Part shown: positions 7,334 through 45,384 of the stretch, one piece after another | Numbering within the stretch: position 1 is the first letter of the stretch | How the letters are laid out: each line of letters begins with the position of its first letter | Origin: a virus | Strand: one strand, 5' to 3' | DNA: 64,000 nucleotides | Virus record (IMG/VR): IMGVR_UViG_3300030101_002380 | Coordinates: 1 to 64,000 of that record | Position numbers and translations under genes: made by a program | Notes under the pieces: generated by a model | The model's database searches: none | Seen by the model: the letters and a program-made list of their open reading frames with translations, nothing else | What the model was told of the DNA's origin: nothing

Positions 7334-10300
7334 TATCTAAATGATACATTAAGTTTACTATTGTTTAATTTTAATAACATCTTTCTGTTTCCAGAAACTC
7401 TCTTTCTTAGAATTACAGCATTCCAGTAATGTCTAAACTTCTTACGTTGGAATAATGGTTTTGCTAAGTTTATATTAGCTTGATTTAACTCTCTAATATA
7501 ACCGTTCAATTGTGTTATAAATATTGGCTCACTTGTATTAGGATTAAATTCTCCTCTATCAGCAGTAACATCCCAAAACATATTAAATCTATATTTCTGT
7601 TCTTCTTTACTATATAGTATTTGAATATCATTAGGTGTCACAACTGGGAACTGAGTTATCAATGGTGCATTATTTTTAGGACTCAAATTTAATGATAATA
7701 ATCCAGATACTTGCTCTGTATTATGAAGTATTGCTTCATCAAAATTATAATCAAGATCATGGAATCTATCACCACAATCATTCTCTAAGTTACCTCTATA
7801 GATATAAGACTCTAACTGATACTCAATACTTCTAACAGTATTAACAACTTGACCTACAGATTCTATAAGTTCTACCTCCCATGGATAATCTATATTGTAA
7901 TAATTTGCAAATAAATCACATCTAGCATTGTGTTTCCAAATAGCTCCTAATTCATTTTGTGCTGGCACAGCAGTTAGTAAAGGAGTGCACTCAGTATACA
8001 TACATGTAATATCAAATGTATTTGGGTCAAGGAATGAAGTATTATCATCAAATTCTTTAATACAGTCACCTGGTGAAGCTGGCGGATAATTATTAGATGG
8101 ATCATTAAATACCATATCTGTACCTTCTGGACAAGCACAAGATCTTGTTGAATCTTCTGATAGTGGTATAGTTAAACCATCTACACATAAATACTTGCTT
8201 ACATTTACATCATTAGCTGGACTACCATATTCTGTGCCAGCTAACTGTCTTGTAACTTGAATCTTAAAAAAGATATATTCCCAAGATTGAGTAGCTGTAA
8301 ATTCATAATCATATACTACCCATTGATCTATATTAGTAACGTCTGGAGATCTCCATAAAAGTTCAGATGCACCTAAAGTATCAGCTCCATCATAACCAAA
8401 TTGACTACCTCTATAGTTTTGACCTTGAAATCCAGGAGGCTCAGATCCACCCCATATTTCTAATGTAGGGGCAAAGTTTGTAAATGATGCTGTGCTAGGA
8501 TGACTACTAGCTTGTGCTAATGCAACAGAACCTACTAATAGTGTATTAGGGGCTAATGAATTTGGTGAACCATTTCCATTTACAAGCAGTTGCCATACAC
8601 CCTCTTGGTAGTATGTAGGATTAGCACCCTGTCCATCAAAACCACCTAGACCATTACAACCAGAATCAGGATCTCCTGATTGAAGCATTCCTATAAAAGC
8701 ATCTCCTTCATATGGTTGTATTGAGTTAACAGGTGGTAAATTAGTTGGACATGTATCAGGTGACATGACTCCATTAACAAGATCACTTTGATTCTGACAC
8801 AAATAACCATTATTCCAAGGGCTTGGTGTCTGGGACCATCCATAATTATCACCTTGTTGTAAGTTAAATCCTGGATTAGCAAATTGAGATGTACCAAAAC
8901 CTACCACAGGTTCAGTGTCAGTTGCAATAATTGGATCTATAAAACCTACAAAACAACATTGCTCAACACCATTAACTATCTGTGGTGTAGACCCTGGTGG
9001 GCATCCTGGTGGATCACATTGATCTGTTATTGGATTATATGTATAACCTGGTGGACAATAAGGTGTATCTAATGTAATATTTTTTGTTGTAAAGAAATGA
9101 TTCAAACTTGGTATTGTTAAATCAGGATGCCAATCATGAAATGATATCCATGCTCTTGCTTTAGGATCATAACTTACCGTCCATGATACATCTTTAAAAT
9201 ATTGTTCATCTGATAATTCAATAGGTACTGTAGCATCAAAAAATGTAACTGGCTCATATACTTCACAACGGCATTCATAATCATTTACACTATTTCCTGT
9301 AGTTCCTGGTAACTGTGTTAATCCTGGATTACATGGATTAAGTACTGTTCCAGGATCACAAAAATATTCAGGTATATCAAAAATAAATTCATCTGCAATA
9401 ATATCTGCTACCTGTGCACCTTGACCAGGCCCAGCAGAAAATGCATTATTCATAGTTTGAACCATACATCCTACTACATTTTGTGGTGCATTAGCAATAT
9501 TAGGAACATTAGCTGCTGTGCATTGTACTATATATGTTTCTACTCCTTGATTCCATACATCATTTTGAATATTTGTTGTACATCCAAAACAATTTGCGCC
9601 AGTACAAGCACTACCACCACTGTCTGCATCAGTTAACACAATCATAATTCTTCTATAACCTGCTTGTCCTGATCTATCACCTAAACTTGAACCTCCAAAA
9701 TTATCTAATATTGCCATACCTTGGATAATAGCATCATCATATTCATCTCCAGCACCATCTAGAACTGGTTGACCAAAGCCAAACGTTGGTCCATTATTAG
9801 TTGTTATAGAATTTAATAATGTTGAGTCAGTAGTCATAGGTGCCACAGTACCTCTTGATCCTGGAGGACCACTACAATTTCCACAAGCAGCAGTAAATGG
9901 ATCAGCTGTCCATACTCCTAATCCAATTTGAACAGAGTTTTGAGCAGTAGGATTATTAGTTAAACTACCATTTAGTAGAGAATCAATTTGTTGTACAAAC
10001 TGTGTAGCAAATGCATTTCCTGTTTGATGACCTTGTGTGCCGGCTCCAGCTGTTGATCCATTACTACCTGACAAATCTAAAACAATAGCAATATCAATTG
10101 GATTATAACCTGGTACAATACGCTCTGAAGCATCAAAAATTTCTATTTTTTCACACTCTTGTCCTACAGGATTTGAAGGATCATATGTGTATCCATTAGG
10201 ACAACATGGTACAGGAGGAGTTCCATTACACTGAGTTAAGTTATATACAAAACCATTACATGCATCAAAATTTATGCAATCTGGGTTTAATGCTTCATAA

Positions 10301-13300
10301 TCTTTTTTACAAAAATATACTAAGTCATAGTTAGGATCATATACAGATTGACATCCTATACCTGCAACAGGATTGTCATAAAGATTAGGACAATCTTCTA
10401 TTTCAGGATATTGACTTAATAATCTAGAAGGTAAGTATTTATTAAACCATTGCTTCATACCATTATTTGCAATATTCTCCAAACCTTTACCCCCATAATT
10501 AAATATTTTTCCTTGAGCTTGTGATATATAATATAATCCAGAAGGTGTATTTATAACACTTCTAGAACTTTCACATGATCCATACTCATGTGCTTCATCT
10601 GCATTAACAACATTTTGCATTGGTTGACTAAATAGTCCTCCGTCACCAATAGTAAGTTTTGTTCCAAGATCTGTTTTTAGTTGATCTACCCCTTGGAATA
10701 ATGCTGGAGCTAAATTAGGGAATGTAACAAAAGCACCACTCTTTGATATGGGTTTTATTACATTTACTATATTCTTAAAGTCTTTAAAATTCATTGGTAA
10801 GAAGACTCTCCAAAAATCTTTCTTAGCTTCCTTCTGTGCCTGTAATGAATATATTAATCTTTTGGGATAATGCGTGAAACAAGTATCTGCTACAAGCGGA
10901 TCATAATCTCTATCTTGAATTTGACCAAAAGAAATAAGTTGTGTATTAAATCTTGATTTACTTAATGAATAATCATACTTGTAAAAATTATCTTTTCTAA
11001 TAATACTAGAATGATACATAGCTTCAAGATCAGTGTAGTCTACAAAATCATAATGTCTTTTTTCATCTACATCTTCATGATCTCTTAATCCCATGTTTAA
11101 TGTTGACTCTACAAAAAAGTCTTGTGTACCATTACAATGAGTATACATGTATCCATTCTTAACAAGGAATAAACTTCTTGTCTTTTTATCATTAGTAATA
11201 CCATCTGCAGTTAATGCAACACTTTGTGCATCACTATAATCATTATTTGTTTCATTAGGTCCACCAGATCCACTTACACCACCACCTCCAGCAGAACCTC
11301 CACTTCCTGCAACATCATCATTAATAGAATCATCATCAGGTCTATCTAAATAATGTAAATTATTAGGTGTTATAGCTGTCATATCATCATTATTACCTGT
11401 AATAAAAGCAAAACTTGTAATATACCTTACCAACTCTGAAAGATCATATTTAGCAGTATTCATCCAATATTTTGGGCGTGGAACATTAGATCTTAATCTA
11501 TAATCAAATGCAAAACCATCTGGTTGACCAGATAAGAAATCCCAGAAGAAAGGCATAATAACTTTTTCTGTATATCTGTTTATATAACAATCACCTCCAT
11601 AAACTATTCTTGTTTGAAACTCTGCATCACCTACATCTGTTACAGAAAGATCAAATTTAAATTCTCCTGTTTCTTCATCCTTTTCTATATACTCTTGTGT
11701 AAAATAATTAATACAACCTACTGGTATTTGTTTTATCTGATCTAATTGACCATATTGATTTTTAAATGCAACTTTTAATGCAGTATAATGTGCAGCTATA
11801 TCTGCTACTCTCCATTGTGAAGGATTAAACCACCCACCAAAAGTACCAATTTTAAATCTAGAATTGTCCTCAGCACCACTAGGTAATCTAAAACCTAATC
11901 CACCTGGAGGAGCTATACTTGAAACAGCAACTGTAGATGGTCTTTGGAGATTATTAATTCTTATTTCTGCAGTTAGATTCTGAATACTAGGTCCAACATA
12001 TCTTGCCTTATCTACTAACATTCTAAATATATCACCATCAACAGGAGCATTTGTATTTAAATAAAGCCCATGACCACTATACTTATACGCATAATCTTGA
12101 AAGCTAACAAGTTCATATATCATATCAATAATATGCTGACCACCTTCAGAAGTCAATTGCATAAAATTAAATATACCAAATAGTGCCTGTGTTATAGAAG
12201 GTGCTTCTGTAAATCTACCACCTTGATATGTTATTTCTTCACCTGCACCTATATACCCTCTATTAGTTTTTCTAGCTTCATTTGTTAAATTACCCATTTG
12301 TGTAAGGGTTGTAGAATCATAACCAAAACCAGGAGCTTGTTGCCATAGTTTTGGTCCCCCAAGTACTGTCGCTGTTGAGTAAAGACCACCTCTAACTGGT
12401 TCAGAAGTTGCATTTAATGGGTTGAAAGGATTAAAAACATTTTCATTTTGATATGATCTACCAGTAGCGGAACCACTATTCCCCATAAAATGAGCATTAA
12501 CATTCAATGCTTTAGGTGGTTGATTAGCATTAATACCTTGAGGAAAGCCATCTACTTGACCTTCAACACCTAATACATTATCAGTATCATAAGGTGCTAC
12601 ACCTTCATTACCTTCTTGCTGTGTATTGACAGCATACATATAATTAGTATTTGCTAATTGAGCAGGTCCTAAAGCAATTGGATAATCTACTGGAGTGGGA
12701 GTTGAAGTTCCAACATTGGCACCAAGTGCTCCACCAAATGCCCATGGTAATCCAACAGGATTTGCCTTTCTTCCGCCATCTCTTTCATTTGATGTATAAC
12801 CAATACTTAAACCTTTTGGTTTAACTTGTTTCTGCATTTTTTTACCACGCATCTCACCAATAGCATAACCTATACCTACCATGATACCAACCCACATAGC
12901 TAAGTTTCTTAATAGTTTAGCACGTGGATGTTCTTCAGATGGTCTAAATCTTCCTATAGATTTACCCGTGGTCATTCCATATGTTTTTACTTCAAATGGA
13001 GATAAGAATGGTTTATTAAATGATGTTTCTGGTGAGTGAAATGTAAATATAGTATCTGATGTTCCAGCAAGACCTTCTGGATACACATTTACATTTGTTG
13101 GGTTATTATAATTAAATGAAAAGCCAGAATTACTTGTTAAGAATACTTCCTCCTGCGCACTATTAAAAGGATAGTTAGGAATAAAACCTGCATCTACTGT
13201 ACTATCTGCACGTCCTTGTGCATTATCAGGTATATCATACTTCCTCATATTTCTTGATATACCTTTTGCTATAATAGATTTATTACCCTCTCTTGATCCT

Positions 13301-42257: not shown

Positions 42258-42312
42258 CTATTTTATTTTTTAAGTGTTTAACAAACCTTTCTATAAAGGA
42301 TCTATGTATACT

Positions 42313-42321
42313 ATAATATAC
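42313..42321 (-). promoter_or_regulatory. Candidate late promoter word GTATATTAT (site 6)
   Basis: The minus strand reads TTTTTAGTATATTATAGTATACATAG, 56 bases upstream of the first leftward gene (start 42,257). This copy stands at the divergence point of the two arms and would drive the longest leftward transcript. Confidence 0.5.
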
Positions 42322-42387
42322 TAAAAATTTTTGGCCTATGGAAATTTTGTGTGTTTTAAGTTGTGAAAGGGTTTATACAATCAGCTC

Positions 42388-42435
42388 CCCGTCTTATCCA
42401 CGGGCAACACCCACCCCCTATATCAAAGTGTGGGT
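42388..42435. promoter_or_regulatory. Divergent control region with DnaA-box-like hairpin
   Basis: Between the two diverging arms lie two GC-rich inverted repeats. The first is CCCGT, loop CTTATCC, ACGGG (42,388-42,404), and the sequence TTATCCACG at 42,394-42,402 differs from the DnaA box TTATCCACA by one base. The second is ACCCAC, 15-base loop, GTGGGT (42,409-42,435), ending 18 bases before the first rightward ATG. Both could be operators, a leader hairpin pair or part of an origin. The phage encodes a DnaA domain IV-like protein (50,207). Confidence 0.4.
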
Positions 42436-42453
42436 ATACTAAAACCAAAAAAT

Positions 42454-42747
42454 ATGACAAAGTCAATTTTTTTCCACAAGATAGTAAATAATACTATCAT
42501 AGTAAAAACTGCCGTGCTAGGAACTAAAAAGTCCACTATCAACGGTGTCACTGTCTATGACAGAGAGCAAGGCTCCGTGACCTACGGTCTACTATGCCTT
42601 ATAGATGAATCAGGCAATTCCCTTGATCCATCTACTCTTGGTCTCAAGAAGAACCAAGAGATTAAAGGCTTCCAGTTGTCATCTAATCCGGTCCTTGACC
42701 AGGAAACAGATGAACCAACTGGTATGTACTGGGCAGAATCTATCTAA
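42454..42747 (+). CDS. First rightward gene, small protein of unknown function
   Basis: This is 97 residues from ATG at 42,454 (MTKSIFFHKIVNNTIIVKTAVLG); a GTG at 42,430 in frame lies inside a hairpin and is less likely. The protein looks beta-rich (GVTVYDREQGSVTYGLLCLIDESGNS) and ends ETDEPTGMYWAESI. I recognise no family. It is the leading gene of the early arm, directly after the divergent control region and directly before the 830-base noncoding region. Its codons for DESGN are part of a 15-base word that recurs at 43,062. Such a first gene is often an immediate-early protein. Confidence 0.6.
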   Translation: MTKSIFFHKIVNNTIIVKTAVLGTKKSTINGVTVYDREQGSVTYGLLCLIDESGNSLDPSTLGLKKNQEIKGFQLSSNPVLDQETDEPTGMYWAESI

Positions 42748-43061
42748 GATTCTGTTCTGTACTTGCTGTAACTCTGCATAGCTACGTTACATTAACACTA
42801 CTATGCACAGTTACACTAACACTTAATGCAATTGAGTGTATAAAAAATTAATTGTGTGCATTAAATTGTGTGTGTGAGGCCTTATTACCCACATATTACC
42901 ACTTTAATCCACAATACAAACTGTTAATCACAGTAATATATAATATAGCTATAAATGCAGCTTACAGGGGTACAGCTGTGAGTATACAAACCAAAGGGTA
43001 TTTACATTAGGAATAATGTTTAAACGTGTTAAGTCCCTAGAACTCTTTAAATGCACACGCT

Positions 43062-43076
43062 GATGAATCAGGCAAT
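43062..43076 (+). repeat. 15-base word shared with the preceding gene
   Basis: GATGAATCAGGCAAT occurs here and at 42,604-42,618 inside the 97-residue gene. After it both copies continue with CCC, with one extra T in the gene copy. Same orientation. A 15-base match within 0.5 kb is unlikely by chance. Confidence 0.7.
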
Positions 43077-43480
43077 CCCAGAGTACTTGTTAGGTATACC
43101 ATTTGTTATTGTGTCTCTTCTCTCTCTATAGGATAAGAGACATAGTAACCGCAAGCTTATAAAATAATTTAACAGAGTAAACTGTTTAAAACAAAAATGA
43201 GTATTCATACGGAGTTCATACTAAGAGTGTAATCAGACTGCAGATAACTGTTACATGCTCACCTACGTATTGTTTCTATGGAGAATACTCATCATAATAT
43301 AAAGAGAGTTGGTTAGTATACATAACCACCATCCTGATACAAGTAAGGCAGTGAAATACAGAAATAAGACTAGGATCTGTACTCTCTTTTATATTCTAAT
43401 AAGGTACAGGTATTTGCTTGATGATGTAAATAGTTCCTGCTAAGTTGATGTTATCCAGCCTTATTTATAATGTATTTCGT

Positions 43481-43539
43481 TAGAAGTAGGAAGGGTGTTC
43501 TTTTTTGTTATATGTTTGTAACATTCCTTTCTACTTCTA
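43481..43539 (+). other. 19-bp bulged stem-loop directly before a gene
   Basis: The arms 43,481-43,499 and 43,520-43,539 pair over 19 bp with one bulged T and two G-U pairs, around a 20-base U-rich loop. The next gene starts 38 bases further. It is the strongest inverted repeat in the window. It may be a processing site, a leader attenuator or an origin hairpin. Confidence 0.6.
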
Positions 43540-43577
43540 CAACAACTCAAACTTAATTATTAATCAAAACTAAAACT

Positions 43578-43847
43578 ATGAATAGATTAAAAAAACTTAT
43601 CCTACCTGTAAAGATATTTGCAGCTTGGGTATTAGCAAATATACTAACAATATTATCTTGGATTACATTATATCCACTATTAGAGTGGGCAAATATAATT
43701 AACCATCCTTCTCAACATCCATATTGGTTAATACCAGTATTAGTGATATATCTTATTGCATCACTAGACTGGTTGTTTAATTTTAAACATATGTATAACC
43801 AATGGGTACAGCATAGATTATGGACTAGAAAACATCGTGGAAAATGA
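43578..43847 (+). CDS. Small two-span membrane protein
   Basis: The 89-residue protein has two hydrophobic segments (KIFAAWVLANILTILSWITLY, about 13-33, and YWLIPVLVIYLIASLDWLFNF, about 49-69) with a positively charged start and a basic tail (HRLWTRKHRGK). It probably sits in the inner membrane with both ends in the cytoplasm. It follows the structured noncoding region and overlaps the next gene in an ATGA junction. Early membrane proteins of this size often mediate superinfection exclusion or host takeover, but no family is recognised. Confidence 0.6.
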   Translation: MNRLKKLILPVKIFAAWVLANILTILSWITLYPLLEWANIINHPSQHPYWLIPVLVIYLIASLDWLFNFKHMYNQWVQHRLWTRKHRGK

Positions 43848-44392
43848 TTGAGTTAGTTAGAAAGCTATGGGAAAGGATCACAGGACGTGGTCCTTCTCAT
43901 AGTCACATAGATAATAATGATCATTTTATTGAAAATCAAAAGATCTTTGCTATTGAACGTGGTAAACAGAATTTGATATCAAGAAGATTAGATATTGTAC
44001 AAGACACAATAATATATAATTGTGTTTATTTTAGTGGAGCTTGTGTACACACTTACTATCCTAAAGATAATAAAACTAATACAAGGTTTACTATAGGAGA
44101 CTGGGACTTGCCAAAGTATTATAAGAATAACTTAGGTAATAATATCATTAAGGTATTACCTTTTAAATATGAAGATTATAACTTTAATGTAACCGCATCC
44201 CAAGACTATATTAGCATAGAGTTTTATAAACTAAATGATGGTATACATTTTATAAATAGTTATGATCACCTGAATATATTGCGTGATCATTCAGAGATAA
44301 AGAGAAAGATTAAGAAGTTTGTTAAAGATAATAAACATCTTAACTATGAGTGCAAAGATAATATTATACAACTGGATATTTCTCACATATGA
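43844..44392 (+). CDS. Early protein of unknown function
   Basis: The 182-residue protein begins MIELVRKLWERITGRGPSHSHIDNNDHFIENQKIFAIERGKQNLISRRLDIVQDT and is otherwise rich in Asn, Tyr, Ile and Lys, with no recognisable motif. Its ATG overlaps the stop of the membrane-protein gene, so the two are translated together and may function together. It lies in the early arm between the structured region and the tRNA. No enzymatic residues stand out; an effector role against the host is possible but unsupported. Confidence 0.55.
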   Translation: MIELVRKLWERITGRGPSHSHIDNNDHFIENQKIFAIERGKQNLISRRLDIVQDTIIYNCVYFSGACVHTYYPKDNKTNTRFTIGDWDLPKYYKNNLGNNIIKVLPFKYEDYNFNVTASQDYISIEFYKLNDGIHFINSYDHLNILRDHSEIKRKIKKFVKDNKHLNYECKDNIIQLDISHI

Positions 44393-44600: not shown

Positions 44601-44732
44601 ATGAGAAATCTATTAAAATTCTTTAAGGAAGAATGGAAATTCCTTACAAAAGCAATCCTATTATGTAGCTTTACTATTACAGTAGCAATATGCGTGATAC
44701 ATGCAATATTTACATTATGGAACGTAGTATAA
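44601..44732 (+). CDS. 43-residue single-span membrane protein
   Basis: The frame MRNLLKFFKEEWKFLTKAIL, followed by LCSFTITVAICVIHAIFTLWNVV, has a basic amphipathic start and one hydrophobic span. It begins 28 bases after the tRNA and ends inside the start of the next gene (16-base overlap with the ATG at 44,717), which supports coupling. Its size is typical of phage membrane micro-proteins. No family is recognised. Confidence 0.5.
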   Translation: MRNLLKFFKEEWKFLTKAILLCSFTITVAICVIHAIFTLWNVV

Positions 44733-45160
44733 AACTTACTGTACCTCAATTAAAAGTATTGTTATCTGACTTGTTTAATCAAGAAGCTGGTAAATCAGCA
44801 GATGCAGTACTACATATGTTGACTGATGTACAGATAGAATTATTAATGCACATTATGTCTACACCAGATTATATACTTTTAAATAAGAATCAAAAGATTA
44901 AGTTTAAACCTGATAAGTATACATTTGAGAATGTAAACATAGATGTACTACAAGATCTAGGATTTGTAGATGAAGAAGGTTATCATTACGGCAAGATAAC
45001 TGGTGATACATCTTATGGTAGTGATTTTAATCCTACTTACTATAAGATGCACGTAAGATGTGTTACTTTACGTAACAATAAACCTATATCTACAGACATG
45101 GAAGTATATACTAAAGATATTGTAGCAATACCTTTAGACAAATGGAAAGGTTTGGAATAG
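44717..45160 (+). CDS. Early protein of unknown function
   Basis: This is 147 residues from ATG at 44,717 (MERSIKLTVPQLKVLLSDLFNQEAGKSADAVLHML). An in-frame ATG at 44,690 would place MRDTCNIYI inside the preceding small gene, so the later start is preferred. The first 60 residues are helical; the rest is mixed, with YTFENVNIDVLQDLGFVDEEGYHYGKITGDTSYGSDFNP. No motif is recognised. It overlaps the next HTH gene by 19 bases and so belongs to the same early operon. Confidence 0.55.
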   Translation: MERSIKLTVPQLKVLLSDLFNQEAGKSADAVLHMLTDVQIELLMHIMSTPDYILLNKNQKIKFKPDKYTFENVNIDVLQDLGFVDEEGYHYGKITGDTSYGSDFNPTYYKMHVRCVTLRNNKPISTDMEVYTKDIVAIPLDKWKGLE

Positions 45161-45384
45161 TTTCACATGAAGTTATATCTGATCCAAAGCTGTCTCTGAT
45201 AGCAAAGGCTGTATATAGTGTATACTGTATACACGCCAACAAGAGTCGTACTTGTTTCCCAAACAATAGTACTGTAGCTGACATGTTAAATGTTGGTTAT
45301 AGTACTGTTAGCAGGGGTATAAAAGAACTGAAAGATGCAAAATATATTAAGAGAGAAGGTAAAATAATAAGGCTATTAAAATAG
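45142..45384 (+). CDS. Winged-helix DNA-binding protein (HTH_36 type)
   Basis: The 80-residue protein MERFGIVSHEVISDPKLSLIAKAVYSVYCIHANKSRTCFPNNSTVADMLNVGYSTVSRGIKELKDAKYIKREGKIIRLLK has the layout of the HTH_36 family: LIAKAVYSVY helix, CFPNNSTVADMLNVGYSTVSRGIKEL helix-turn-helix with recognition helix at STVSRGIKELK, and a wing. Such domains are common in phage replication initiators and regulators; here it stands alone. It ends 81 bases before the next gene, with a weak terminator-like hairpin in between. It is probably an early regulator. Confidence 0.7.
   Translation: MERFGIVSHEVISDPKLSLIAKAVYSVYCIHANKSRTCFPNNSTVADMLNVGYSTVSRGIKELKDAKYIKREGKIIRLLK

Follow-up and report, generated by a model that had tools for sequence, protein, structure and literature searches.

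Phage genomes leave little spare room, and structured RNAs are found in several of them. The RNase III sites of T7 and the RNAs C and D of T4 are structured RNA parts of early or tRNA-proximal transcripts, and the put element of HK022 is an antiterminator RNA with two hairpins right behind an early promoter. In HIV-1, the short loop of the dimer initiation hairpin contains a palindrome of six bases, frequently GUGCAC. GOLLD and ROOL are phage-encoded structured RNAs of unknown function, which are often near tRNA genes and form kissing-loop oligomers (PMC12286853). A TROVE gene has been found among the early genes of crAss001 (PMC10136315).

The locus described here compares with these systems as follows. 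GOLLD and ROOL are single RNAs (GOLLD members often exceed 800 nt; PMC12286853), whereas here we find separate modules of about 95 to 130 nt, which share no sequence or model match with them (the GOLLD and ROOL covariance models of Rfam gave no match above the gathering score) and for which oligomerization is suggested by palindromic loops only. Unlike the T7 sites and the T4 RNAs, the present locus holds several families with invariant loops, exchanged as units. Its helices P1 and P2 resemble put in being two hairpins directly after a promoter-like block (block A), but there is no sequence match, the P1 apex is hypervariable, and P1 is replaceable by an ORF (L157). The HIV-1 hairpin is an unrelated RNA, and its likeness to the loop of our module C is one of dimerization principle only. 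Bacterial Y RNAs are likewise small RNAs with a long terminal closing stem, and a Rfam match to them is absent here; a TROVE/Y RNA (Ro60) system was rejected, the TROVE protein being found in 0 of 12 genomes (this one and 11 related ones) in a search whose control was positive. Structured phage RNAs such as GOLLD and ROOL are already known, and these families and their exchangeable slot are without a description in the searched literature. The lineage keeps such a slot right behind a conserved promoter-like block. The locus supplies several RNA families that are uncatalogued and backed by covariation; it also offers a candidate promoter for crAss-like transcription, a system about which little is known, and is somewhere to seek RNAs acting on bacterial hosts.

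Noncoding arm junction of a distant crAss-like virus

The window, a 64,000-base stretch of viral DNA, comes from a virus record of 113,624 bases. Portal, TerL, and major capsid proteins match crAss-type PHROG families, and the best public TerL hits come from crAss-like phages, with about 26% identity, which places the virus in a distant crAss-like lineage; the group is known here from metagenomes alone. Up to about 42.3 kb the genes point leftward, and from about 42.5 to 68 kb they point rightward; a tRNA gene lies 1 kb from the noncoding region. The small gene upstream of this region belongs to the preceding transcription unit. A TerL-based search for relatives gave 80 loci, while the proteins encoded at 43578 and 43844, used as search seeds, found no relatives. 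One relative (L003:3227-18358) contains a 5,043-aa ORF, the largest in that genome.

The initial annotation had placed a gene-free region packed with stem-loops at 42748 to 43577. Its limits are correct, as the upstream plus-strand ORF stops at 42747 and the next begins at 43578; internal ORFs are short and unsupported, and tRNA and Rfam scans were empty inside. The stem-loops are also real, and stems of 15, 15, 7+7, 10, and 9 bp were located (Table 1). No intrinsic terminator (G+C hairpin followed by a T run) was found within 42300 to 43900, and the hairpin behind the upstream gene has a terminator-like placement without a T run. In alignments of the relatives with the window, sharp conserved blocks stand out within the noncoding region from a variable remainder.

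Table 1. Features of the arm junction (window coordinates)
Feature	Position	Strand	Remarks
Small upstream gene, 97 aa, no family	42454..42744	+	Similar-sized plus-strand ORF here in relatives
Hairpin 3' of upstream gene, two-part, 7+7 bp	42767..42815	+	z -4.8; conserved in L071, L115, L085
Block A, promoter-like	42845..42952	+	Conserved in 45 distinct sequences
P1 domain, helix from GCUAUAA, hypervariable apex	42948..43102	+	Strongly covarying in relatives
P2/block B hairpin, 15-bp stem, invariant CUCUCUCUAUAGGAU/CUCUCUCUAUAGGAUAA, then conserved ACCGCAA	43105..43149	+	z -5.7
Small hairpin AACAG-AGUAAA-CUGUU	43171..43186	+	Typically a leader element immediately upstream of a start codon in relatives
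Module D, structured RNA, perfect 10-bp closing stem (43197-43206/43283-43292)	43197..43292	+	
Module C, structured RNA, 9-bp closing helix (43301-43309/43381-43389), three inner hairpins	43301..43396	+	
Spacer, no relatives or structure excess detected	43397..43480	+	z -0.6
Long hairpin, 15 bp plus inner 7 bp	43481..43539	+	z -6.4; no homologue, this genome only
A/T-rich leader CAACUCAAACUUAAUUAUUAA of gene 43578	43541..43577	+	Common to L071 and L115
First clear rightward-arm gene, 89 aa, unknown	43578..43847	+	

Folding energy and covariation

A comparison of folding energy with shuffled copies had been suggested for this region. The region as a whole does beat its shuffles (z -3.7 on the plus and -2.6 on the minus strand, matched by none of 100 shuffles on either), but the test does not discriminate, because 24 control windows placed in the gene arms averaged z -2.5 and about nine of them scored lower than the noncoding region. 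Since coding sequence from this genome folds equally well, folding energy is no evidence here, and the argument built on it falls; conservation and covariation do discriminate, because comparison with relatives shows the structure. The covariation check, also suggested at the outset, found compensatory pairs in P1, C, and D, and together with modules recurring in relatives it bears out the proposal of structured RNA. Searched against Rfam at a permissive threshold, the region gave sub-threshold chance matches only, and no module matched in 81 kb of module-rich loci, in line with the earlier remark that no named family fits. The P1 and C helices contain more G-U than A-C pairs (28 versus 14), which modestly favors a plus-strand RNA.

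Block A as a candidate promoter

Block A carries three CCAC boxes about 10 bp apart, starting at 42889, then an inverted repeat, ACTGTTAATCACAGT, at 42920 to 42934, and finally ATATATAATATAGCTAT, which ends at 42952. GGTC, the three boxes, the small inverted repeat, and ATATATAATATAGCTAT are common to all 45 sequences; considered as a DNA hairpin, the inverted repeat has only 53% of cells paired. Block A is present in a single copy in the 113.6-kb genome and was seen in 15 of the 18 TerL relatives (10 kb compared in each), the remaining three (L059, L061, L079) having block B further along the same contigs. In L157, L077, and L044, an ATG follows directly 3' of block A. Upstream of it, a hairpin with a T run occurs in 12 of 41 relatives versus 12 of 300 random places, and we read these terminator-like hairpins as probable ends of the preceding transcription unit in those 12.

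From this layout we infer that block A functions as a promoter and that a new transcription unit begins there in the relatives, with a start likely at about 42943 to 42950. No sigma-70 site (-35/-10 hexamers at a spacing of 16 to 18) was found at block A, where a TATAAT-like hexamer is present on its own. Since the early genes of crAss-like phages are transcribed by a virion polymerase (PMC10136315), an unusual promoter would be unsurprising. Block A could double as a protein-binding replication site. An HTH_36 protein (Pfam) encoded at 45142-45384 is a candidate block A binder, and a 20-bp hairpin is predicted within its coding region (z -7.4 at 45176).

Leader helices P1 and P2

The P1 helix is poorly formed in this genome, with no fold by energy and an apex at z +0.5. 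In relatives, the apex varies greatly in length, and the distance from the block A core to block B is about 64 to 181 nt. Across 18 trimmed sequences, 7 of 14 P1 pairs have changed on both sides, and 0 of 500 shuffles reach the paired fraction or the covariation score; trimming the alignment and placing its 3' arm where pairing was best both favor the helix, so we put weight on the inner, variable pairs. In L157 (8661 ff.), a small ORF stands in place of the P1 helix, ahead of block B. The upstream gene and the P1 apex of the window share a repeat on the same strand, in which 17 of 18 bases of GATGAATCAGGCAATTCC (42604-42621) recur at 43062-43079.

Block B was found in 76 viral contigs and had no genuine match in 257 Gb of cellular genomes; a match in a Woesearchaeota contig (L187), which has no block A and unrelated ORFs, was judged to be chance. 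The density of long inverted repeats downstream of block B is only about 1.8 times that elsewhere.

Modules C and D

Members of module C were found by a pattern scan and then by a covariance model, giving 13 including the window copy, of which L183 and L186 are identical; a covariance-model match in L016 (E 0.74) was judged to be chance. The module was found in 5 of the 18 records, with one copy per genome. The unfitted alignment contains three compensated pairs. In the model alignment, which is fitted to its own covariance model, 9 of 23 pairs have changed on both sides, a result matched by 0 of 500 shuffles, and 95.8% are paired compared with at most 55% when the alignment is slid. In nearly all members, one hairpin has a palindromic loop, which reads GUGCAC in most; in the window it is GUAUAC (43316-43321), changed on both sides relative to GUGCAC, and in L115 it is GUGUAC (wobble). 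The palindromic loop is a lead pointing toward homodimers. In L184, two C-like modules stand in tandem (10141-10253 and 10369-10480), the second with a different palindromic hairpin, GUUCUGCAGAAC.

The core of module D, CAGACUGCAGAUAACU...AUGCUC, is common to seven loci, and over these few sequences 3 of 8 pairs of the inner helix are compensatory. Every locus has an outer stem with perfect or almost perfect pairing, its sequence unrelated between groups, which fits a helix and not a transposon end. On their own, modules C and D each fold at z about -1.5.

Exchange of modules in a proposed early transcription unit

Related viruses exchange the modules as whole units. Module D matches its counterpart in L110 at 97 of 97 positions, from 43196 to 43292, the identity stopping where the closing stem ends, whereas homologous genes share about 61% identity; module C is 90.7% identical to that of L033 over exactly 43301-43396, with genes at 62 to 76%. 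In the closest relative, L071, the segment from 42955 to 43543 is replaced by other modules, block B excepted, while outside it, on the left side, L071 is 86 to 92% identical to the window. Further structured families occupying the slot in relatives are I (ACCAACTAACT...AGUUAGUUGGU), J, K, H, and M.

We assign a probability of about 0.7 to the reading of the junction as an early rightward unit composed of the block A promoter, the P1/P2 leader, and exchangeable structured RNA modules. The rightward (early/replication) transcription unit would then begin in this region, with block A as promoter and operator. The transcript would start near 42945, make the two-helix leader first, and then cross the small self-contained RNAs D and C and the long hairpin before gene 43578. 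The modules are autonomous folding units with long closing stems, swapped as units and rapidly replaced; they are most probably made early and in quantity and act on host or phage factors like small early accessory genes, and module C, perhaps also D, may act as a dimer via self-complementary loops. Rapid replacement in the leading slot of an early unit is a usual trait of genes that interact with the host, which favors trans-acting RNAs for C and D, with cis-acting leaders as a close rival. We infer, from comparison of the genomes, early-transcribed, exchangeable structured RNAs, perhaps trans-acting and dimeric through their palindromic loops.

It is possible, though not our preference, that the modules act on their own mRNA, as RNase III-like processing sites, stabilizers, attenuators, or ligand-sensing leaders for early genes. 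Long stems with internal loops do lie between early genes, hairpins of the 43171 type and module M lie 20 to 60 nt upstream of start codons, a placement compatible with both cis leaders and trans-acting RNAs, and the module tract is immediately upstream of gene 43578. However, modules C, D, and I adjoin different, unrelated ORFs in varying order, the loop sequences are conserved beyond the needs of a processing site, and about 430 nt of modules lie between block B and the gene in this genome. The trans-acting reading also has a far-reaching version, which we consider rather doubtful: the arm's first promoter would be followed by an arsenal of RNAs, in which many unrelated small dimerizing families (C, D, I, J, K, H, and more) would be cassettes swapped under arms-race pressure to block host defense or take over host machinery. 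If true, it would be an RNA counterpart of early anti-defense protein loci.

A replication origin, one of the options listed in the initial annotation, is not upheld as the main reading and seems to us unlikely. The CCAC boxes would be initiator-binding repeats, the A/T stretch a melting site, and the stem-loops aids to initiation. Such an iteron-type layout is indeed seen, with single-copy, directly repeated boxes next to the A/T-rich ATATATAATATA at the skew switch and arm junction, and an operator array would look alike. But the skew merely tracks the direction of the genes, and the two arms differ greatly in length (about 25 versus 88 kb), which makes an origin less likely; the ATG immediately 3' of block A in three relatives also speaks against it, and the downstream structures show RNA-type covariation and are exchanged among phages, which is not how an origin behaves.

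That a single large, ornate phage RNA like GOLLD or ROOL spans the region is quite improbable. About 600 to 800 nt of noncoding phage sequence, the nearby tRNA gene, several helices, and palindromic loops would suit it, but Rfam gave no match and the modules are found apart, in varying order and with ORFs in between; the single long RNA suggested earlier gives way to a promoter-like block and separately exchanged modules. MITE-type mobile DNA, whose terminal inverted repeats would be the closing stems, could explain unit exchange with boundaries at stem ends but is rejected as highly improbable, since the terminal arms of D differ wholly between copies around a conserved core, the reverse of a MITE, and module C has one copy per genome and compensatory changes inside.

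Structured elements in related genomes

Module I is closed by ACCAACTAACT/AGTTAGTTGGT around a variable inner hairpin (L104:9193-9294; L145:2125-2265; also L021, L088, L123, and L138); it lies directly 3' of block B in two genomes and several hundred bases on elsewhere. Module M (L110:1566-1690; also L108, L119, L125, L144, and L145) consists of CUAACARUACCA, two to three covarying hairpins, and an invariant GAGUGAGUAGYGAUURA, and ends shortly upstream of a start codon, in L110 that of a homologue of the window gene 44690-45160. Its architecture suggests a riboswitch-like leader. The hairpin arms of element K (GAAAGGCUGU ... ACAGCGUAUUCCUAAGCAAGAAGAUAAAC) covary between genomes (L071:3129-3207, L130:836-951, L041:657-771, L169:643-689). 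In L164:6093-7893 and L166:8548-10268, a tract of well over 1 kb holds many recurrent structured elements, with loops containing GUGCAC, and one of its elements, ACTCTCATCCAAGCAGG ... GGGTTGCAACCTTGTGAGAGTA, is present in two copies in L166.
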